Source: Chroococcidiopsidaceae cyanobacterium CP_BM_RX_35 (GTDB lineage Bacteria; Cyanobacteriota; Cyanobacteriia; Cyanobacteriales; Chroococcidiopsidaceae). From it: 8,121 nucleotides of DNA. The notes under the pieces are model-generated. The model was not told where the DNA came from, ran no database searches, and worked only from the letters and a program-made list of their open reading frames with translations. Positions 1 through 8,121 of the stretch are shown in pieces; position 1 is the stretch's first letter; every line of letters begins with the position of its first letter. The translations under genes were made by a program, and so were the position numbers. Location: contig JAFAVL010000539.1 of the NCBI GenBank assembly GCA_019242465.1, forward strand, positions 1 to 8,121, read 5' to 3'.

Positions 1-1135
1 CCCGAAATCTTCTCAAAATCTCATGCCGCTCCTTAACTGGGGTTTGATGCGAAATTGCTGGAATCAGCAACTCTTGAGAGATGCGGTAGACTGTAGCATT
101 ATCAGCCGTAAAAATCAAAGTGCGTTCTGGGTAATGTTCAGCTAACAAATCCGCCAAGACTCGCAGCTTGCCATCTGTTCCCAAAGCGATTTCCTTCGCT
201 TCCCTGTGGGCTAGCATCGCCCGCCGTCCTTCTTGAGAACGCCCACTAGCTTGCACAAATTGCTGCCAACCTTGAAGACTACCCAGGATAATTTTGGCTC
301 TGCGCAAAAAGTCATTGCGCTGTTGCACCAACTGGTTGTAGCGTTCGCGTTCTTGTTGTGACAGATTCACCTTGATTCGTACCACATCATGCTCTGCCAG
401 TGCCTTGCCTGCCAGCTCTGCCGCACTTTTACGATAGACTTCAGGACCGATCAGCATCTCTAGGTCAGCATGTCTTCCATCGGAGCGCTCTGGTGTCGCT
501 GATAATCCCAAGCGATAGGGAGCAAGTGCATACTCAGCAATCACCCGGTTGAATTCTGTTGGCAGGTGATGACATTCATCAAACACCAGCAGCGCATAGC
601 GATTCCCCAAGGCTTCCGCCTGGATAGCAGCACTGTCATAAGTTGCCACTAGAATTGGAGTGCGATCGCGAGACCCGCCGCCCAATAACCCTACTTCTAT
701 ATCTGGGAAAGCTGCCTTCAAATGGGCATACCACTGATGCATTAAATCCAACGTTGGCACCACAATCAGCGTACTGCGGGGAGTTGCTTGCATCGCGAGT
801 TGGGCCAGGTAAGTCTTACCAGCAGCAGTGGGCAGTGCAACTACACCCCGCCGTCCTGCCTGTTTCCAACTTTTCAAAGCCTCAGTTTGATGGGGGTAGG
901 GTTCCATTTCTAGGCTAGGGACAAGTTCCAGCGGCTCAAACCCTTTAGCTTCATCTACCAAAGTGGTCCCTTCCGCTTGCAGCGCTTCCATTAGAGGACG
1001 GTAAGACCAAGCGGGGAGGCGAAACTTCTCGACTCGATCATCCTAAGTAGCATACTCCACCCAGGCTTTTCCTTTCGGTGGCGGATGCAGAATCAAAGTC
1101 CCCCGATCGAAAGATAAGGTAGGGATACGAACCAT
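1..1135 (-). pseudogene. XPB-like superfamily 2 DNA helicase, partial, interrupted by TAG at codon 31
   Basis: This is a DEAD/DEAH (COG1061, XPB/Ssl2-like) ATP-dependent DNA helicase, a family tied to DNA repair. Reading from ATG 1135, a conserved-looking N-terminus (MVRIPTLSFDRGTL) leads into a TAG at 1045-1043. The same frame then stays open to the window edge with every SF2 hallmark in order: Q-motif-like PYPHQ, motif I LPTAAGKT (around 805-828), motif II DECHHLP (around 552-572), motif III LGLSATPERSDGR, and the start of the second helicase lobe (TLIFTADNATVYRIS). The TAG falls in WVEYAT*DDRVEKFR, where relatives as I recall them read ATWDDRV, so a TGG to TAG change is the simplest reading. 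ATG 1171 is in frame but has no ribosome site. If translation restarts, the next in-frame ATG is 991, also without a Shine-Dalgarno, which would lose the N-terminal damage-recognition part. The C-terminus is outside the window. A sequencing error cannot be excluded. Confidence 0.8.
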
Positions 1136-1228
1136 GAAGTTTCCCTGTGTCAGTCTTGCTGCTCTTGCCATTTTGAGGAGTTAGTTTACCATCTCCTACA
1201 GCAGTTGAGCAATTCTAGAAAAACCTAG

Positions 1229-1243
1229 TGAGTGCTGCACTCA
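1229..1243. terminator. 15-bp palindrome, possible terminator of the partition operon
   Basis: TGAGTGC-T-GCACTCA is a perfect 7-bp inverted repeat around a single central base, lying between the end of the minus-strand operon (1265) and the helicase gene. Read on the minus strand the hairpin is followed, after CTAGG, by TTTTTC. That resembles a weak intrinsic terminator, but the T-run is five bases away from the stem. It could instead be an operator for the helicase gene. Confidence 0.35.
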
Positions 1244-1264
1244 TGGTCACAAGCGTCGGAAGCA

Positions 1265-1810
1265 TCACAACCTCAACCTAGAAAACAACAATCCTGGTAT
1301 CCCAGCAACTTCCCTGACAGACAATGCTAGCTTCCTAGTAGCATGACACACTCCATGAGGTTGAGGACATGCCATCTTTGTCGGCACAGCATAAGCGATA
1401 ATCACCACCCAGAAGATCAGCATCGGATTCCACACTAGGCAAAACAAGGTTGTCTTGTTCATCAGCTTGTACAAGTTGCCTGCTGTCCAGCCTAACAACT
1501 TTTGTCCTTCGCTGCGGAGAGTGTCACCTGTCTGCTTTATCGCTTTGGCTTTCCTTTCCTCTGCTGCCGCCCAGGTCAAACTGGCATTCAGCTTCTCCCT
1601 AGCCAACTGCTCAGCTTTGCTATCCGATGCTTGCTCTATCCTGACGTTGATAGTCTGCCGTTCTTCCTCTAACTCTTGATTGACCAGTCGCTTTACTCTT
1701 CGCTCGTTCCCGTCTCGGAGCCTTCGGGCAAGCTCATCGGCTTGGGCGACGAGAGTGGTAGTGAATTCGGCTCCCAGTCCCAAGTCTGCGTCAGGGAACG
1801 AGCCTGCCGC
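1265..1810 (-). CDS. -1 frame C-terminal extension of the third partition-operon gene, with a membrane segment
   Basis: This frame is open from upstream of 1810 to a stop at 1267-1265. It reads as genuine protein: a long charged helical stretch, likely coiled coil (ADELARRL, NERRVKRLVNQELEEE, SKAEQLAREKLN), then a hydrophobic segment of about 24 residues (TTLFCLVWNPMLIFWVVIIA, about 1453-1382) and a short Cys-containing tail. As a separate gene it would have to start at TTG 1783, which has no Shine-Dalgarno and lies inside the 283-residue frame, so independent translation is unlikely. Joined in the -1 direction at the G GGA AAG site (1816-1810) it adds 181 residues to residue 245 of the upstream frame, giving 426 residues with the membrane span near 365-388. 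The upstream frame's own tail over 1815-1693 (WDWEPNSLPLSSPKP, SETGTSEE) looks like the out-of-frame reading. Either a programmed frameshift or an indel explains the arrangement. Function unknown. Confidence 0.6.
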   Translation of the reverse strand, partial: AAGSFPDADLGLGAEFTTTLVAQADELARRLRDGNERRVKRLVNQELEEERQTINVRIEQASDSKAEQLAREKLNASLTWAAAEERKAKAIKQTGDTLRSEGQKLLGWTAGNLYKLMNKTTLFCLVWNPMLIFWVVIIAYAVPTKMACPQPHGVCHATRKLALSVREVAGIPGLLFSRLRL

Positions 1811-2544
1811 TTTCCCTCGATCTGCACCATCACCCGCTCTTCCAATTCGGCAAAAAACAGTTCTGTATTCTCCTTGCTCTGGGCGAGTTTACGGGCAGCA
1901 TGTTTCAGGTAGGAGCGGTTGACCATTCCGGGAATCTTATCGGTCTGTCGGTCTGTCACTTTGTCAACCAAGCGCTCTAACCCTGATTCAGCAATTAAGG
2001 CTGAGTCACTCACCAGTTCTGTAATTTGCTCGCTGTGGGTTTGAGATAGCTCCGCAGTACCAAAATGCGCTGCTATTTCCTCATAGCTCTGACCCTGGTT
2101 CTTCAGTAGGTCGCAGGCTTCCAGAAAGCGATCGCACTCCTGTTGGTTGTATTCCTCAGCATCAGCAGATAAACCACAGGCTTCAAGGAGTGCGATCGCT
2201 TCTTTGGGAGAGATAGCACAACCGAGTTCCTTAGCGAGGGAGAGGAGTTCGGAGAAGTCTAGGGGTTTAGCTGCTGGTTTCTTGCCATTCTTCGATTTCT
2301 TGGTCTTACCTTGAGCTTCGGATTCGGCTGATTGAGCAGGAGTACCAGGAACAATATTATTTTGCTGCATCAACTCAGCAATTTCATTGTCAGACTTGCC
2401 TTGCTCAATCAACTGACGACATTCCTGAAAACGCTCGGCTTCATCTTCTGTGTACTCTTCCTTCTCAGATAAAACACTCAGTTGTAAGGTTTGGACAAAA
2501 TCTTCTTGGGAAAGGGCGCTTTGCAGTTCGTGTCTTTGGTACAT
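1693..2544 (-). CDS. Third partition-operon protein, duplicated helical motif, unknown function (zero-frame product, 283 aa)
   Basis: I do not recognise the family. ATG 2544 follows a GAGG ribosome site (2558-2555, 10-nt spacing) and lies 36 nt after the ParR-like gene, so it is probably the last gene of the operon. The protein holds two copies of a motif of about 50 residues: residues 12-61 (core YTEDEAERF..C..L...G.S..EIA) and 112-162 (core YNQQECDRF.EAC.LL..G.S..EIAAHFG). They are separated by a Lys/Ala-rich linker at 80-94. The G-x-S-x-x-E-I-A core resembles the second part of a helix-turn-helix, so DNA binding is possible but only inferred. Residues 200-245 (LERLVDKVTDRQTDKIPG, YLKHAARKLAQSKENTELF) are predicted helical. 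After residue 245 the composition changes abruptly to a Ser/Pro/Trp-rich tail, and the adjacent -1 frame carries a better-looking C-terminus. The true main product may therefore be the 426-residue frameshifted form. Confidence 0.7.
   Translation of the reverse strand: MYQRHELQSALSQEDFVQTLQLSVLSEKEEYTEDEAERFQECRQLIEQGKSDNEIAELMQQNNIVPGTPAQSAESEAQGKTKKSKNGKKPAAKPLDFSELLSLAKELGCAISPKEAIALLEACGLSADAEEYNQQECDRFLEACDLLKNQGQSYEEIAAHFGTAELSQTHSEQITELVSDSALIAESGLERLVDKVTDRQTDKIPGMVNRSYLKHAARKLAQSKENTELFFAELEERVMVQIEGKRQARSLTQTWDWEPNSLPLSSPKPMSLPEGSETGTSEE
1702..1803 (-). promoter_or_regulatory. Potential RNA stem-loop downstream of the slippery site
   Basis: In the minus-strand transcript GCUCGUUCCC (1803-1794) is perfectly complementary to GGGAACGAGC (1711-1702). 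The stem begins six bases after the slippery heptamer and ends just before the zero-frame stop (1695-1693). Nested inside are GGAGCC (1774-1769) with GGCUCC (1722-1717) and AAGC (1743-1740) with GCUU (1733-1730). A competing smaller hairpin pairs GGCUC (1804-1800) with GAGCC (1773-1769). Either would sit at the spacing usual for a frameshift stimulator. The 82-nt loop of the outer stem is large, and no folding energy was computed. Confidence 0.4.
1810..1816 (-). promoter_or_regulatory. Candidate -1 slippery heptamer GGGAAAG
   Basis: In the 283-residue frame the phase is GAG-GGA-AAG, so the heptamer reads G GGA AAG, the correct X XXY YYZ phase for simultaneous slippage of two tRNAs. GGGAAAG is the heptamer known from the lambda tail genes G/GT. 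Slipping back one base leads straight into the frame ending at 1265, where the membrane segment lies. Phase was checked from ATG 2544: the GGA codon is residue 244. Function is inferred. Confidence 0.5.
2126..2201. repeat. 16-bp perfect inverted repeat built on two HIP1 octamers
   Basis: AAGCGATCGCACTCCT (2126-2141) is the exact reverse complement of AGGAGTGCGATCGCTT (2186-2201). The arms are 44 bp apart, inside the second motif copy of the 283-residue protein. Each arm contains GCGATCGC (2128-2135 and 2192-2199), itself a palindrome common in cyanobacteria; the remaining eight matched bases in each arm are extra. A strong mRNA hairpin would form inside the coding region. Confidence 0.75.
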
Positions 2545-2580
2545 GTTTACTTAACCTCGTTAAATTCGTTGAAACTTGAT

Positions 2581-3060
2581 TCAGTCTTTAGCAGCAATTG
2601 TAGAGACGTAATCGTCGTCTCCTAAGTTGGAAGTAAATTGAAAAGGAACATTCCACTCTCCATCATCAGCTTCTTCAACAGATAGTTCCTCCGTTAGTGA
2701 GTTATCAGAGTTGTGTACTGCTTCAGAAGCACTTATCGACACTGAAGCAGTGTTCACCTGTATGGGTAGAATACTTCCAATCATGCCGCTATCTAGCTTG
2801 ATCCCGATCATTGATTGCAGACGCTGTAGATGGATCAGCAACCCGTAGATAGATTCCAGAGTCACTTGATGCAGTTGCTCACTTGTCACCTTCAGATGTT
2901 TATAGGCATAAGGCAACCAGAAGGTTTTTAGTGCTAACATTACCATTTCCCGGAACGGGTAAGGTGTAGCCTCTACATCACGTAGATACTCTACCAAGAC
3001 AGCTTCTGAGCTATCATATTCCACCTTGATCCGCAATCTAATCTCAATTGTCTTCTTCAA
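2581..3060 (-). CDS. ParR-like plasmid partition adaptor (putative), 159 aa
   Basis: This is probably the centromere-binding adaptor of a type II (actin-like) partition system, linking the iterons to the ParM filament. The assignment rests mainly on position: 12 nt downstream of parM, in the parC-parM-parR order. The predicted fold fits a ribbon-helix-helix: a strand at residues 3-14 (KTIEIRLRIKVEY), a helix near 18-30, a helix at 36-54 (FREMVMLALKTFWLPYAYK) and a further helix at 59-84. The tail from about 123 to 151 is acidic and probably flexible (LTEELSVEEADDGEW, LGDDD), as expected for a ParM-contacting tail. I see no sequence signature that proves ParR. The start is TTG at 3060, supported by AGGAG at 3074-3070 with 9-nt spacing. 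The next in-frame ATG would delete the first 38 residues, including the DNA-binding strand. ParR proteins usually repress their own operon by binding the iterons. Confidence 0.6.
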   Translation of the reverse strand: MKKTIEIRLRIKVEYDSSEAVLVEYLRDVEATPYPFREMVMLALKTFWLPYAYKHLKVTSEQLHQVTLESIYGLLIHLQRLQSMIGIKLDSGMIGSILPIQVNTASVSISASEAVHNSDNSLTEELSVEEADDGEWNVPFQFTSNLGDDDYVSTIAAKD

Positions 3061-3069
3061 TCCCCGTTA

Positions 3070-3074
3070 CTCCT
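3070..3074 (-). promoter_or_regulatory. Ribosome binding site fixing the TTG start of the ParR-like gene
   Basis: AGGAG overlaps the TAG stop of parM (3075-3073), so termination on parM places the ribosome directly on the next gene's Shine-Dalgarno. This suggests translational coupling and a fixed ratio of filament protein to adaptor. It is the reason for choosing TTG 3060 as the start. Confidence 0.6.
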
Positions 3075-4245
3075 AAACTCGCTTTTTGACTCCGTTTAGG
3101 TAAGGCAGCACTTGCTTTTGCATATACCTGTACAACCCATAGGCATCTGTAAGACGTAGACATTGTGCATCTTTACTAGGTGCTAGATTGAAGGCTTGGC
3201 GTACATCCTCTTCTAGTTCTGCTGCCCAGGAAAACGTAGCATGAGGAAATCTCTTCGCGCATAAAGCTTTGAGTTCAACCTTGAGATATTCCGATGTACC
3301 TCCACCTACAATCACTTCGTCTACATCAGTAGGGGTGTGATTATAAAGCCAGTTTGACACTCTTCCCCAATACTCAGTTCGTGATTTACGTACCGCCTCG
3401 ACAATCTCGTTAATTTCATCCGCTTTAAATCCGTCCTTGCGACTTCTTACCAAACCCTCAAAGTATTTGGATTTGATGACGTTCCCTGCCTGGTGAATTG
3501 CTTTTAGTAGTAGATCAACTTCCATTCGGGAGGTGCGGCAGGTAATCAGCTTAATCATCTCAGCCAGACCTAGAGCTTCGGTCTTGCCAGTAATCACCCC
3601 TCGCTCCGACACTACTATTGATATATCTCGATAGCCAAGCATGATCACCAGAATCTTCTTCTGGTCAAATCCGGCTCCGAGTTTGCGATTGCGCGTGATG
3701 ACTAGTCCGCCCCCCTCTGGCACACACATGAAAAACTTGAGTCCCACTGCTAGCGATCGCTTTCTGAAGCTGAAGTTTGACAAAGCCTTGGTCACTGCAC
3801 GCTCAAATTTATCCTTGTCTCGCCATTCGTTGTATGGCAAAGGAAGTGTTAGCGCCAAATCAAATTCATCAGGCAATCCAAACTTACTAGCAATTACCCC
3901 AACTGCGGCTAAGACCTTGGGAATTGCACCCTCGTACTTCAGGTTGTCCAGTTCTACTGTCCCATCGAATTGGTTTTTCGCCAGGAACCCCACGACATAA
4001 CACTCATCCTCGTACTCTACCCATGCCTCATTTTCTGGTTGCGGCACACTGAACCTGGTCGATTCATACCTCTCCTCAATCTCTTCCCGGCTTTTTTGTG
4101 ATAATTGCGGTTCCATCCACAGTAGATCTAGTTTCGATGGCACTCCCTCTTGTACAACCTTGAACACTATCTTGGTTCCTGAAGTACCTACATCAACAGT
4201 TAACAACACTAGGTTGCCAATACTCTCGTTTATCTTCAACACCAT
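3073..4245 (-). CDS. parM: Actin-like ATPase ParM/StbA, plasmid segregation
   Basis: This is an ATP-driven filament protein that segregates plasmid copies in the cytoplasm. The 390-residue product has the actin/Hsp70-fold signature. Phosphate-1 loop is LTVDVGTSGTK at residues 15-25, with Asp18 as the likely metal-coordinating residue. The adenosine loop is VIVGGGT at 311-317, and a conserved C-terminal helix reads RLTDAYGLYRYM. Between them, LALTLPLP (130-137) and a long helical insert match cyanobacterial ParM-like proteins in layout. The phosphate-2 loop, IMLGYRDISIV (201-211), lacks the usual D-x-G-G-x-T, keeping only one Gly and an Asp, so hydrolysis may be atypical. The length is slightly above R1 ParM (about 320). 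ATG 4245 is preceded by only a weak GGTAG ribosome site. The iteron region just upstream and the ParR-like gene just downstream support the partition role. It is the first gene of a minus-strand operon. Confidence 0.88.
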   Translation of the reverse strand: MVLKINESIGNLVLLTVDVGTSGTKIVFKVVQEGVPSKLDLLWMEPQLSQKSREEIEERYESTRFSVPQPENEAWVEYEDECYVVGFLAKNQFDGTVELDNLKYEGAIPKVLAAVGVIASKFGLPDEFDLALTLPLPYNEWRDKDKFERAVTKALSNFSFRKRSLAVGLKFFMCVPEGGGLVITRNRKLGAGFDQKKILVIMLGYRDISIVVSERGVITGKTEALGLAEMIKLITCRTSRMEVDLLLKAIHQAGNVIKSKYFEGLVRSRKDGFKADEINEIVEAVRKSRTEYWGRVSNWLYNHTPTDVDEVIVGGGTSEYLKVELKALCAKRFPHATFSWAAELEEDVRQAFNLAPSKDAQCLRLTDAYGLYRYMQKQVLPYLNGVKKRV

Positions 4246-4380
4246 GCTTGTCTACCATTCGCAACGGTAACTTATGCCAATTCCTAGAAGCTGCGATCAC
4301 CTTCACATTTCTTAATCCCAAAAGGCGATTTTTCTGGGTTTATTCTAGTATCGCTCAAGAACAAAGTGGGTCAATTCAAC

Positions 4381-4435
4381 CCCACTTACAACCCAATCTT
4401 ATCCCACTTACAACCCACTTACAACCCACTTTTCT
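4381..4435. repeat. parC: Iteron cluster A: five 11-bp direct repeats (parC, promoter-distal to the second cluster)
   Basis: Five units abut with no gaps at 4381, 4392, 4403, 4414 and 4425. Three are identical CCCACTTACAA, one is CCCACTTTTCT and one is CCCAATCTTAT. The 11-bp period puts every unit on nearly the same face of the helix, as expected for a protein that polymerises along DNA. The cluster lies in the parM leader, between the candidate promoter and the start codon. Confidence 0.88.
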
Positions 4436-4464
4436 CTTAAAGTACAAAATTATTGCAAATTATT

Positions 4465-4494
4465 ATTATTAATCCATTAAGTCACGATTGTCGA
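4465..4494 (-). promoter_or_regulatory. Candidate parM promoter between the two iteron clusters
   Basis: On the minus strand TCGACA (4494-4489) is followed after 18 bp by AATAAT (4470-4465). Both differ from the sigma-70 consensus at one position, the -10 box at its first base. The segment between the iteron clusters (4436-4507) is AT-rich. Transcription would begin near 4458, giving a leader of about 210 nt that includes cluster A. Adaptor bound to both clusters would cover the promoter and so autoregulate the operon. Confidence 0.45.
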
Positions 4495-4507
4495 TGTCCA
4501 AACAGCT

Positions 4508-4573
4508 CCCACTCGTGACCCACTTGTGACCCACTATCATCCCACTCATAACCCACTTACAACCCAATATACT
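4508..4573. repeat. parC: Iteron cluster B: six 11-bp direct repeats (parC)
   Basis: Units start at 4508 (CCCACTCGTGA), 4519 (CCCACTTGTGA), 4530 (CCCACTATCAT), 4541 (CCCACTCATAA), 4552 (CCCACTTACAA) and 4563 (CCCAATATACT). All begin CCCA and the first five begin CCCACT; the second half drifts. The unit at 4552 is identical to the main unit of cluster A, tying the two arrays to one binding protein. R1 parC likewise has two arrays of five 11-bp iterons around the parM promoter. Confidence 0.85.
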
Positions 4574-4575
4574 TG

Positions 4576-4597
4576 TTGGGAAGGACCTCCTTCCCAA
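4576..4597. repeat. Perfect 9-bp inverted repeat with 4-nt loop; possible oriT element or cruciform
   Basis: TTGGGAAGG - ACCT - CCTTCCCAA starts three bases after the last iteron. No T-run follows on either strand, so it is not an intrinsic terminator. It lies between the partition and transfer operons, upstream of the relaxase gene, where an origin of transfer could be. I see no recognised MobF nick sequence, so the oriT role is only a guess. Confidence 0.45.
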
Positions 4598-4777
4598 ACC
4601 CATCCCGGAAAATTCTTCCCTTCGGTCAGGGCACATTACTCTAATTTTTAGGTTAAGATAGCAGACAGAAAAAAGCTCAATAATCCAGAGTAAACAAAAA
4701 AGTGAAGCTGGGTAGATAGAAATTCAAAAAGCTAACTACCACTCTGCTCCTCTTCAGTTTCATCACACCCATCACTC
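4598..4777. other. AT-rich intergenic leader of the mobilisation operon
   Basis: I find no gene and no convincing promoter here. CCCT-AGGG (4618-4621 with 4628-4631) is a weak four-base-pair hairpin. TAAGAT (4654-4659) could be a -10 box for the plus-strand operon, but no -35 stands out at the right distance. The motif AAAAAGCT occurs twice, near 4670 and 4726. The promoter and oriT for the relaxase operon most likely lie between 4576 and 4825. Confidence 0.4.
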
Positions 4778-4825
4778 ATGCACGCAGTTAAGCAGACTCT
4801 CTTAAACAGAGAGGCAAGATTTTTA

Positions 4826-5218
4826 ATGGATAGTTGTTTTTGGTCAAGCAGTCATTATTGGTCAACGCGACAACCAAAACTGAAGCGAGACAGAACTAAA
4901 ACTGGAATTAAGATTGCTTACTCATCTAGAACTGAGTGGTTTGTCTTCATGTTCAGTAAGTTCCACCGAGAAGCAATAGAAATTTTTCGCTCTCTAGAAA
5001 AGAGGGAGACATGGTTTTATCAGGAGCCAATCAACCAGTATCGAAGCTTCAGTGCCTGGTGCATAGATGCTAAACAATTTGAAGGAGTGCTAGAGCAACT
5101 AAAAACGTTGTCTGATATTGAGTTGGAGTTTGTTGTTCCCCAAACCAGTCAGGGGTTACGTATACCTGAACGGTTTAATGTACTGGGGTTGCAGTTCTTT
5201 AAGGTCAATCCGCTATGA
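4826..5218 (+). CDS. Small unrecognised protein upstream of the relaxase, possible mobilisation accessory, 130 aa
   Basis: I do not recognise this protein. The frame is open from ATG 4778 (146 residues), but that start has no ribosome site. ATG 4826 has GAGAGG at 4809-4814 with 11-nt spacing and is preferred. The first 30 or so residues are Lys/Arg-rich (TRQPKLKRDRTKTG). The rest alternates predicted strands and helices (WFVFMFSKFHREAIEIFRSL, SFSAWCIDAKQFEGVLEQL, ELEFVV), a small alpha/beta fold, with no signal peptide or membrane segment. Its TGA stop overlaps the relaxase start as ATGA (5215-5218), so the two are co-translated. This fits a DNA-binding accessory protein for relaxosome assembly, which is inferred from position only. 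Confidence 0.65.
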   Translation: MDSCFWSSSHYWSTRQPKLKRDRTKTGIKIAYSSRTEWFVFMFSKFHREAIEIFRSLEKRETWFYQEPINQYRSFSAWCIDAKQFEGVLEQLKTLSDIELEFVVPQTSQGLRIPERFNVLGLQFFKVNPL

Positions 5219-8121
5219 TGACCCCGAAGAACATCAAGGCTAAGACAGCGCTTGAGTACTTCAAGAAAGGCTACTACGCGCAGGGCGAGTGGCTGGGTCA
5301 GGGTGCAGAAAAGCTGGAATTGAAGGGGGAGATTAAGAACCTCGAAGCCTACGAGAACGTTGTCAAAGGGTTTAGTCCTGACAAGAGCCAGCGGTTAAAT
5401 CAACGAGAGGTTGACGAAAATAAGCGCAAAGCCGCAGTTGATTGCACATTTAACGCTCCCAAAAGTCTGAGTATAACGGCTCTGATTGGAGATGACGAGC
5501 GCCTGCTGGAGGCGCACAATCAAGCCGTAGAAGAAGTTTTGCAAATCCTAGAGTCACGTTATGCCCAGACCCGAATTATGGTGGACGGCAAGACTCAAGA
5601 ACTCGTGAGAACAGGAAATTTGATCATTGCCAAACACGACCATATTGAAACCAGGAAGTTAGATCCTCACGCCCACAGTCATTGCTTGGTGATGAACGCC
5701 ACTCAAGCAGCGAATGAGGAGTGGTACAGCCATTTGAATGATGCCATCTTTAGCAACCAAAAGCTGTTGGGGATGATGTACCAGCACCATTTGGCAGCAA
5801 AAGTGGAGAAGTTGGGGTACGAGATTGAGTGGAAGGACCACGGTCAATTTGACATCAAAGGTTACTCTGAGAAAGACTTAATGGACTTCTCGAAGCGACG
5901 GCAGCAGATTTTAGCCGTTGCCGGAGCAGACGCAAGTTGGGCACAGAGAGAAAGGGCTTGGAAGAAAACCCGCAGCAATAAAGAATATGTCCCGGAGGAC
6001 GAACTTAAAAGCAAGTGGAGGGAAGAAGCTAAGGCATTAGGAATTGAGTTCGTCAGACCTGGGGAGCCAAAACTAGGGTCAGAACCAGCACCTATTAGCC
6101 AAGAACTGTTCAACGATAGCATCAACCATTGCTCAGAGAAGCGAGTAGCTTTCAAGGCAGAGGATATTGAGAAATTTATCCTGAGCCACAGTTATCAGAC
6201 AGTCAATCTGCACAACCTTCAGTCATTAATTGACAGTAGCGATGAGTTAATTCGGTTGGAGTTTGATAATCAGCTCCTCTACACCACTCAAAAAGCAGTG
6301 CAGATGGAATTAGCAACCATTCGCCTGATGCAAGAGGGACAGAGAACGGTTGCCTCAATTACCCATCCCAAAGTTGTTGCACACTACCTAGAAGAGATTC
6401 GGCTCAAGCAAGAACAGAAGCTGAATCAAGGACAGCGGCAAGCGGTAATGATGACTTTGTCGACAACAGATCAGTTTGTTGCGTGGCAAGGGGTAGCAGG
6501 AGCTGGCAAAACCTTTGCGTTGGAACATTTAAAAGCACTGGCTGAGGCACAAGGATATATGGTCAAGGGGTTCGCTCCCAGTGCTAAAGCAGCGCGAGTC
6601 TTAGCCAAAGATATTAAGTCAGAGACTCAGACAGTTGCTCAATTATTATGTTCCAAGATGCCAGAGCTGGACCATCCCAAACAGATATGGGTGGTAGATG
6701 AAGCGGGACTCTTGAGTACTAAAGATGCTCAGGCTCTGCTACAACGCGCCAGAGCTGAACAAGTCAGGGTAATTCTGGTGGGAGATACCAAACAGCTATC
6801 AGCAGTAGAAGCTGGGAACCCGTTCAAGTCCTTGCAGCAACGGGGAATCAAGACAGCCTATCTAAACGAATCACAACGGCAGAAAGACCCTGACCTCAAA
6901 CTAGCAGTGGACTTACTAGCTGATGGTTGCATTGAAGATGGATTTAGGAAATTAGAAACAGACGGTCGCATTAGAACAGTAGATGCAACCGCCCTGACAA
7001 CTCACATAGTAAAAGCATATTTACAGCTTACACCAGAGGAACGCAGAGAAACTCTATTGCTGGCTGGCACTAATGAACAACGACGTACCATCACTGCTGT
7101 ACTACGCCAGGAGTTAAAAGCTGAGGGGAGCTTAGGAGAAGATGTCACACTTACTCAGCTCAAAGCCAAGGACTTATCCGACGTTGAGAAGCAGAATTAC
7201 CTGAGCCACTTTGCTGTGGGCGATGTGGTTATTCCTCTAAGAGACTACAAACGCAAAGGTCTGGTCAAGGGTGAGCAATATCAAATCGTGAGCAAGACCT
7301 CAGATAAATTACAACTGCAAGCCAGTGATGGGACGCAGCTAACAGTTGACCTGAATTTCAAAAAGGCAGTATTTGAACGCGAACAGATTCAAATTGCCGT
7401 GGGCGATCGCCTGATGTGGAAGAAGAACAACCGGGCATTAGAGCAGGTGAACGGAGAAGAGGTGCTTGTCAAAGCCATCGATGGCAACCAAGTAGAACTT
7501 GAACAGCAGGATGGGAAAACACGCTTAATTGACCTATCTATGCCGCATCACCTAGACCATGCACTGGTGAGGACGACCTATTCCTCTCAGGGAGAGACAG
7601 CGGATCGAGTGCTGATAGCGGCAGATGCAACCATTGGTCAGGAGAGCTTTTACGTAGCAGCTAGTCGTGCTAGACATGAACTCTGCTTCTTCACTCAAAA
7701 TCCCAAAGAGCTATTGAGGTGGGCATTGGAGTCGAGGGCGCAGGAAAATGCCTTGGACCTACTGCGTCAGCAGCTAGAGAAACAGATGCAACTGGAAGTG
7801 ACGGCTAGAGTTAGTCAGTCCTCTACCTCAATTGTTGTGGCTGAAAAACCGCAGCCACAACAGAATTCACCCGTTTCCGTTGCTAATAGTGCAGCTCAAT
7901 CAACAGTAGCACCACCGATTAAACGCACCGATAAAACCCCCGAACCAATTGTCATTGCTCCGGTTCAACGCCATGAGCAGCTACCACAACCACAACCAGT
8001 TCCCCATCATCACATTGCTCAGCCACCTATCAAGCACCCAAAAATCGCAGCCTTCTGGACTCCAGGCAACGCTGGGGAAGCCCCCATTCACATTGGACCG
8101 CAGCACTGGAAAGAACTAGTG
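5215..8121 (+). CDS. MobF-family conjugative relaxase-helicase (TrwC/TraI-like), partial at the right edge
   Basis: This enzyme nicks one plasmid strand at oriT, stays covalently bound through a tyrosine, and unwinds the DNA for transfer. The frame is open for 969 residues with no stop and continues beyond the window. N-terminal relaxase: candidate catalytic tyrosines Y15, Y20 and Y21 in EYFKKGYYAQGEW; DCTFNAPKSLS (76-86) matches the family D-x-TF-x-APKS motif; metal-binding triad H152, H154, H156 in DPHAHSH. A RecD-like SF1 helicase follows: Walker A GVAGAGKT (426-433), Walker B VVDEAGL (D495, E496), motif III VGDTKQL (522-528), YSSQGET (789-795) and YVAASRAR (813-820). From about 850 the protein turns into a Pro/Gln-rich, probably disordered linker. 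The start is ATG 5215, overlapping the preceding stop, with AAGG at 5201-5204; ATG 5218 is equally in frame. TrwC is 966 residues, so this one is longer. Confidence 0.93.
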   Translation, partial: MMTPKNIKAKTALEYFKKGYYAQGEWLGQGAEKLELKGEIKNLEAYENVVKGFSPDKSQRLNQREVDENKRKAAVDCTFNAPKSLSITALIGDDERLLEAHNQAVEEVLQILESRYAQTRIMVDGKTQELVRTGNLIIAKHDHIETRKLDPHAHSHCLVMNATQAANEEWYSHLNDAIFSNQKLLGMMYQHHLAAKVEKLGYEIEWKDHGQFDIKGYSEKDLMDFSKRRQQILAVAGADASWAQRERAWKKTRSNKEYVPEDELKSKWREEAKALGIEFVRPGEPKLGSEPAPISQELFNDSINHCSEKRVAFKAEDIEKFILSHSYQTVNLHNLQSLIDSSDELIRLEFDNQLLYTTQKAVQMELATIRLMQEGQRTVASITHPKVVAHYLEEIRLKQEQKLNQGQRQAVMMTLSTTDQFVAWQGVAGAGKTFALEHLKALAEAQGYMVKGFAPSAKAARVLAKDIKSETQTVAQLLCSKMPELDHPKQIWVVDEAGLLSTKDAQALLQRARAEQVRVILVGDTKQLSAVEAGNPFKSLQQRGIKTAYLNESQRQKDPDLKLAVDLLADGCIEDGFRKLETDGRIRTVDATALTTHIVKAYLQLTPEERRETLLLAGTNEQRRTITAVLRQELKAEGSLGEDVTLTQLKAKDLSDVEKQNYLSHFAVGDVVIPLRDYKRKGLVKGEQYQIVSKTSDKLQLQASDGTQLTVDLNFKKAVFEREQIQIAVGDRLMWKKNNRALEQVNGEEVLVKAIDGNQVELEQQDGKTRLIDLSMPHHLDHALVRTTYSSQGETADRVLIAADATIGQESFYVAASRARHELCFFTQNPKELLRWALESRAQENALDLLRQQLEKQMQLEVTARVSQSSTSIVVAEKPQPQQNSPVSVANSAAQSTVAPPIKRTDKTPEPIVIAPVQRHEQLPQPQPVPHHHIAQPPIKHPKIAAFWTPGNAGEAPIHIGPQHWKELV

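Follow-up and report, generated by a model that had tools for sequence, protein, structure and literature searches.

Introduction

Programmed ribosomal frameshifting in bacteria is used in phage tails, transposases and dnaX, and the slippery site of the lambda G/GT gene pair is GGGAAAG. In lambda G/GT, ribosomes slip by -1 shortly before the upstream frame ends, giving long and short forms with a common N-terminus; in IS3-type OrfA/OrfAB, frameshifting (often -1) joins a DNA-binding-type upstream product to a second part; and the heptamers A_AAA_AAG and G_GGA_AAG are highly shift-prone in E. coli (PMC5009743, in part). Two systems resemble the locus described here in other respects. TubY of the type III partition system (TubZRC) is a third partition protein with a helix-turn-helix (HTH) domain, a coiled coil and a membrane-binding C-terminus (PMC7762940, in part), and in filamentous cyanobacteria FcmB, a ParM-derived actin, has a membrane-associated partner, FcmC, indicating that an actin of this origin can be membrane-linked in these organisms (PMC12645912, in part). 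In this work, DNA of 8,121 nucleotides from Chroococcidiopsidaceae cyanobacterium CP_BM_RX_35 (contig JAFAVL010000539.1, positions 1 to 8,121; “the window”) was analysed. It contained, on the minus strand, a putative actin-type partition operon whose third gene (gene 3) was overlapped by a long -1 frame (“gene 4” where it is treated as a gene of its own). Comparison with relatives indicated that gene 3 is very probably decoded in two ways via -1 programmed ribosomal frameshifting.

Results

The overlapping frames of gene 3

The features of the overlap, in window positions, were the following:

1693..2544, minus strand: gene 3, zero frame; 283 amino acids, with two HTH-like repeats, helices and a disordered C-terminal tail from residue 245
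1810..1816, minus strand: slippery heptamer G_GGA_AAG, spanning the third base of gene 3 codon 243 and the whole of codons 244-245
1265..1816, minus strand: -1 frame from the heptamer to its stop; 183 codons including the Gly-Lys of the heptamer, 181 residues added after residue 245
1781..1783, minus strand: TTG, the sole ATG, GTG or TTG of the -1 frame between the heptamer and the gene 3 stop; possible alternative start
1794..1803, minus strand: 5' arm of a 10-bp perfect inverted repeat, six bases past the heptamer
1702..1711, minus strand: 3' arm of the same repeat, pairing with 1794..1803

A first-pass annotation of this DNA had proposed a -1 shift from two overlapping minus-strand frames and an in-phase GGGAAAG at 1816-1810, and both were found: the zero-frame open reading frame (ORF) occupied 1693-2544, the -1 frame was open from 1888 to its stop at 1265, and the heptamer was read GAG GGA AAG in the zero frame. 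The -1 frame continued for 142 codons beyond the gene 3 stop, and the proposed products of 283 and 426 residues (245 + 181 = 426 for the fusion) were supported by sequence comparison. The frames, their phase and the heptamer are solid and, judged by homology, far beyond chance.

Conservation of the -1 extension

Relatives of gene 3 were gathered from two sets of 388 genomes (37 and 13 with a match, partly identical genomes), and further regions and 14 plasmid records were also sampled, giving 80 distinct gene-3-like ORFs (E-value of 1e-5 or lower). Sixty-two of them showed a -1 extension of at least 85 codons past the stop and 4 a +1 extension; for 125 other ORFs of at least 200 codons from the same loci, used as controls, the values were 5 and 21, respectively. 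The gene 4 frame was the -1 frame of gene 3 in the 9 loci for which this was computed, with Gly-Lys near its opening in most.

An insertion, deletion or sequencing error in an originally single-frame gene might be suspected, as a distant relative (P0060, described below) is indeed single-frame. The two-frame arrangement in 62/80 gene-3-like ORFs, from many assemblies and some plasmid records deposited as complete, argues against this, as does the conservation of the zero-frame C-terminus itself, and the probability of such an error is negligible. The homologues of gene 3 comprised 46 proteins of 162-304 amino acids (in a search admitting up to 1.75 times the query length); none was of fusion length, and a continuous frame, which in close homologues would have spoken against the shift proposed by the first-pass annotation, was seen only in the distant P0060. 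The C-terminal tail was recognisable to its end in most of 26 aligned sequences (the window and 25 of the 46 homologues), indicating that the short form is a genuine product, and no remnant of a disrupted longer protein.

Single-linkage clustering at 80% identity reduced the 62 ORFs to 41 clusters, from which 39 representatives were kept. The remaining two clusters (the first ORF of L011, and L036) were set aside as artefacts, their extension being a second gene-3-like domain; an ORF of L006 resembling them was kept, as a non-representative, and the second ORF of the L036 locus (L157) did carry GGGAAAC and a -1 extension.

Conservation of the heptamer

A strict heptamer was defined as an in-phase X_XXY_YYZ, with Y being A or T, within the overlap. 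It was present in 36 of the 39 cluster representatives (2/39 and 6/39 in the other two phases), compared with a mean of 10.3 and a maximum of 19 when these proteins were recoded synonymously 300 times, 3/38 in an equally long upstream stretch, and 8 of the 103 Gly-Lys pairs located elsewhere in the 62 genes. The heptamers were of GGGAAA-, AAAAAA- and TTTTTT- types. The residues at the shift site varied (GK, GN, KK, FL), as did the preceding residue, and the slippery rule remained constant. One 80% cluster contained both AAAAAAG and GGGAAAG members, and in L052 a CCCTTTG also fitted the pattern beside GGGAAAT. Three distant members (L045, L054, L075) had TTTTTTG heptamers.

The runs of six or seven A, or six T, in some members would suit transcriptional slippage, in which the polymerase adds or drops a base and the mRNA changes frame. 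Such slippage usually requires longer runs than the three or four bases of GGGAAA-type sites (three in the window), making it a very improbable explanation.

Start codons and coding constraint

No ATG, GTG or TTG was located between the heptamer and the gene 3 stop in the -1 frame of 23 of the 36 representatives with a strict heptamer; one was present in 13, the window included. The first start-type codon was sometimes far in (116 residues past the heptamer in L084, 92 in L032). Four-fold sites at which the amino acid was unchanged were compared in 19 non-overlapping pairs, no gene entering twice and some clades contributing more than one pair: 304/1286 had changed upstream and 21/272 in the overlap (Fisher p 2.4e-10). 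The reduction was seen in the 10 pairs without a start codon (193/770 upstream vs. 15/130 in the overlap, p 4.5e-4) and in the 8 pairs with one (90/464 vs. 6/134, p 7.4e-6).

These results bear on the possibility that genes 3 and 4 are two distinct, overlapping genes, gene 4 starting at TTG 1783 or by re-initiation beside the gene 3 stop (translational coupling). The TTG is in frame and is kept in the related locus L001, near-invariance between the window and L001 begins at about that point, and the comparison of these two sequences alone had suggested an independent start there, an idea reversed by the wider sampling of relatives. L001 also has a GTG overlapping the gene 3 stop, the protein P0047 is annotated from the corresponding place, and annotators often begin gene 4 in or after the overlap. 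A separate start would, however, leave the in-phase heptamer (36/39) and its varied types unexplained; it would lack a start codon before the stop in most relatives, where the first one may sit deep in the conserved helix; and no Shine-Dalgarno-like sequence was seen by eye before TTG 1783. The own ATG of a distant locus, L152, slightly raised the probability of a separate start, which nevertheless remains unlikely.

Putative stimulators

The 10-bp perfect inverted repeat reported by the first-pass annotation, starting six bases after the heptamer, was present at 1794-1803 and 1702-1711, but its rarity had been overstated: a perfect stem of at least 10 bp occurred, at any position, in 8/500 dinucleotide shuffles of the 124-nucleotide stretch (about 1 in 60, instead of one in a few hundred). 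Folding of the 127-nucleotide stretch was not unusually stable (z-score -0.22, with 86/200 shuffles at least as stable), and the window stem is thus real and weakly significant. Outside the window, L001 was the sole locus in which the stem was seen (9 bp, judged by eye), and no covariation can be counted from two sequences; the expectation that homologues would keep heptamer, phase and stem held for the first two (36/39) and failed for the stem. As a general stimulator the stem was not supported, mean z-scores being -0.4 to -0.5 over 36 representatives. Three members of one clade (L011, L015, L018) showed a strong hairpin approximately 6 nucleotides past a GGGAAAC/A heptamer (z-scores of -2.2, -3.7 and -4.0 for 50 nucleotides), likely a clade-specific stimulator. 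Weak average folding together with a strong hairpin in a single clade suggests that stimulators, if any, are clade-specific. No Shine-Dalgarno-like sequence was seen by eye upstream of the window heptamer.

Distant loci and a natural fusion

Matches to a profile of the extension were found in 34/388 genomes. Sixteen loci beyond the gene 3 counts, from the longer and stronger of these matches, were examined (15 distinct places, since L123 and L161 coincide). A -1 overlap with an upstream ORF was found in 12 of them: 5 had strict GGGAAA-type heptamers (GGGAAAG in L151, L158 and L159; GGGAAAC in L157 and L160), 6 had G_GGG_AAG (L122, L123, L153, L154, L155, L156) and one, L121, had a run of five G. 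L118 and L124 were fragments. Among the twelve, an ORF matched the gene 3 profile only in L157, L122 and L159, suggesting that the upstream partners of the extension are otherwise either different proteins or strongly diverged ones.

In L151, L153-L156 and L158, similar extensions followed upstream ORFs of approximately 90-207 codons with no match to the gene 3 profile. The frameshift-coded anchor may be modular and combine with different partner proteins.

G_GGG_AAG recurred at the place of the heptamer (L041, L068, L122, L123, L153-L156). It was taken as a putative second, non-classical class of site; by reasoning, re-pairing would be complete at the glycine codon and would involve a single G-U pair at the lysine codon.

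A search with a profile built from 33 extensions, restricted to lengths of 0.55-1.75 times the query, returned 17 proteins: sixteen of 88-148 amino acids, and P0060, of 312. The latter, a single metagenomic protein sequence and a single-domain distant relative (not a close homologue of the window), followed the L073 zero frame up to Leu-Gly-Lys (28% identity) and then the L073 -1 extension (60%), all in a single frame. The fusion junction coincides with the shift site. The longest open frame with similarity to gene 4 (393 codons, G004) ran into the downstream reading frame.

Points weighing against frameshifting

Several observations count against a shift at the heptamer and are gathered here. 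Eighteen of the 80 gene-3-like ORFs lacked the -1 extension; these include fragments (L039, L051 twice, L089 twice) and distant matches with E-values of 3e-13 to 1e-6 (two ORFs each in L048, L049 and L076, and one each in L055, L056, L074 and L077), and also L034, the first of two ORFs of L018 and one of two ORFs of L042, which are neither fragments nor distant. Three representatives had no strict heptamer (L041 and L068, with GGGGAAG and its four G, and L046, with five G), the run lying at or near the matching place. The p values are rough, since the Gly-Lys dipeptide is preserved in the synonymous null and a single clade supplied some of the 19 pairs. No conserved stimulator was found in 36 representatives with 60 shuffles each (mean z-scores of -0.50, -0.39 and -0.44 for 50, 90 and 120 nucleotides). 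Several relatives had a start-like codon 82-88 nucleotides before the gene 3 stop. In L152, the distant relative of gene 4 lay in the +1 frame relative to the upstream ORF and had an ATG of its own in the overlap, and this lineage probably has two separate genes. Finally, the 11 -1-frame codons from the heptamer to TTG 1783 differed at several residues between the window and L001, which fits a loose linker and equally a start at the TTG; considering the window alone, TTG 1783 is a possible additional start.

The extension: predicted helix, predicted membrane anchor and motif

Three features were recognised in the extension of the window:

1460..1771, minus strand: long predicted helix (extension residues 16-119; AlphaFold2, 104 residues), perhaps a coiled coil
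1388..1453, minus strand: predicted transmembrane helix (extension residues 122-143); Kyte-Doolittle maximum of 2.19 over 19 residues, a 22-residue helix in the model
1334..1369, minus strand: C...C...R motif (C150, C157 and R161 of the extension) after the transmembrane helix; invariant in 33 aligned extensions

The AlphaFold2 model of the extension, of moderate confidence (mean predicted local distance difference test, pLDDT, 72.7; predicted template modelling score, pTM, 0.32) consisted of a disordered linker, the long helix, the hydrophobic helix and a short tail. A transmembrane stretch (19 residues, Kyte-Doolittle mean of at least 1.6) was present in 35/39 extensions vs. 1/39 zero-frame proteins. 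Together, the model and the hydrophobic stretch suggest that a helix and a membrane anchor would take the place of the disordered tail upon shifting. Thirty-three of the 39 extensions were aligned, leaving out L042, L044, L045, L053, L054 and L075; inspected by eye, L042 and L053 had the C...C...R motif, L044 had the first Cys only, and L045, L054 and L075 did not have it at that place. The extensions of L045 and L075 had no transmembrane stretch, and in L054 the stretch was at a different position.

Gene 3: the zero-frame product

Two domains were delimited in the short form:

2362..2544, minus strand: first HTH-like domain (residues 1-61); model pLDDT of 86-91 in blocks 1-60; MerR_1 at residues 30-61, 17.7 bits, under the cut-off of 21.6
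2059..2265, minus strand: second HTH-like domain (residues 94-162); model pLDDT of 73-87 in blocks 91-160; HTH_38 at residues 146-162, 14.4 bits, under the cut-off of 27

The AlphaFold2 model of gene 3, of moderate confidence (mean pLDDT 67.3, pTM 0.30), displayed two confident HTH-like domains, more helices and a disordered tail beginning at residue 245, that is, at the shift site. Among solved structures, sequence matches were limited to short stretches of one repeat protein, each insignificant alone, and to other weak matches. Membership of the MerR or TubY-type family was rejected, the MerR_1 score of 17.7 bits being below 21.6.

The partition operon and the rest of the window

The neighbours of gene 3 in the operon were as follows:

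3073..4245, minus strand: gene 1, actin-like ParM-type ATPase; Pfam ALP_N 27.0 bits (cut-off 26.3), PHROG partition protein 6e-14
2581..3060, minus strand: gene 2, occupying the ParR position; relatives at the same place in many loci
4370..4573, no strand assigned: 11-bp tandem repeats, centromere-like (parC) candidate, upstream of gene 1

Gene 2 gave no named-family match in the Pfam, NCBIfam or PHROG profile scans. The repeats at 4370-4573 formed two clusters of CCCACTTACAA-like 11-bp tandem repeats upstream of the ParM-type gene, and are perhaps the centromere and operator of the operon. Regarding type II (ParMRC) systems, both an actin-like ATPase gene and candidate centromere repeats beside the operon were present in the window.

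The start of a ResIII/DEAD-type helicase gene (positions 2-991, minus strand) ran off the window end, and a long plus-strand ORF from 5215 was called putatively MobF/TraI-like, from annotated relatives only. The window had no Rfam matches at gathering thresholds.

Distribution and annotation

Of 28 plasmid records, 22 belonged to Nostoc and two to Tolypothrix, the others to Calothrix, Microchaete, Aulosira and Gloeothece; the named relatives nearest to the window came from Chroococcidiopsidaceae assemblies. Copies with a ParM-like neighbour were also found on chromosome-sized contigs of G011 (6.7 Mb) and G314 (6.1 Mb, two copies). In these loci (L145, L146 and L147, two of them in one genome) the ParM-like gene was accompanied by gene-2-like and gene 3/4 sequences, and they represent either integrated plasmids or domesticated systems. 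A DNA-level search of plasmids, a tblastn search of plasmids with the extension and a search of viral contigs gave no matches. The annotation of gene 4 in plasmid records varied: it was omitted, begun inside the overlap or begun past the gene 3 stop.

Discussion

Comparison of relatives establishes the heptamer and its phase, the dual-coding constraint, the scarcity of start codons in many relatives and the predicted anchor. Under -1 frameshifting, ribosomes staying in frame would stop at 1693 and make a soluble 283-amino-acid protein with two HTH-like repeats, and some ribosomes would slip by -1 at G_GGA_AAG (1816-1810), at a useful rate, and read on to 1265. In place of the disordered 38-residue tail, the shifted product would carry a linker, a long and perhaps coiled-coil helix, a single transmembrane helix and a short tail with the Cys...Cys...Arg motif. 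The short form would then be a soluble partition accessory protein, able to bind DNA or the partition complex. The long form would be a version of it anchored in the membrane, tethering the plasmid or filament there, with the shift setting the ratio of the two. For the tethering role of the long form, the chances appear roughly balanced. The broader proposal is evenly poised: a widespread cyanobacterial variant of actin-type partition, on plasmids and some chromosome-sized contigs, in which the shift would set the soluble/anchored ratio and tie plasmids or ParM filaments to the membrane, with G_GGG_AAG as a second site in one branch.

If true, a broadly conserved family would be added to the bacterial uses of frameshifting beyond phage tails, transposases and dnaX, with a product switch between soluble and membrane-anchored forms. 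Actin-type plasmid partition would gain a candidate membrane-tethering component, and the shift would explain a gene that annotators shorten or omit. The statement that no frameshift has been described in a ParM-type operon agreed with the open-licence literature, in which none was found by title and abstract start; the word “frameshift” is absent from the main text of the FcmB/FcmC paper (PMC12645912), and the family may sit unnamed in the supplementary clusters of the GeneTack survey (PMC3711429).

Comparison with known systems

The lambda G/GT shift belongs to a tail operon; the one proposed here lies in a partition operon, and its extension is a predicted helix with a transmembrane anchor. 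A tail assembly chaperone identity was rejected, a PHROG scan of both frames giving no tail family up to an E-value of 1. With respect to IS3-type elements, no transposase match was obtained in the Pfam, NCBIfam and PHROG scans, and the second part is here a putative membrane anchor. FcmB is also distinct: gene 1 was rejected as a member (NF052678, 48.6 bits vs. a cut-off of 300), and in G275 the gene 3 matches sit on other contigs than FcmB. TubY has an amphipathic tail and works with a tubulin-like motor (PMC7762940, in part), whereas the locus described here has an actin-like motor and a predicted frameshift-coded transmembrane helix; by analogy, TubY would be the closest functional analogue. 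Together with the type III proposal of the TubY paper (PMC7762940, in part) and the ParM-derived FcmB (PMC12645912, in part), the frameshift-coded anchor would make membrane-linked plasmid segregation in cyanobacteria testable.

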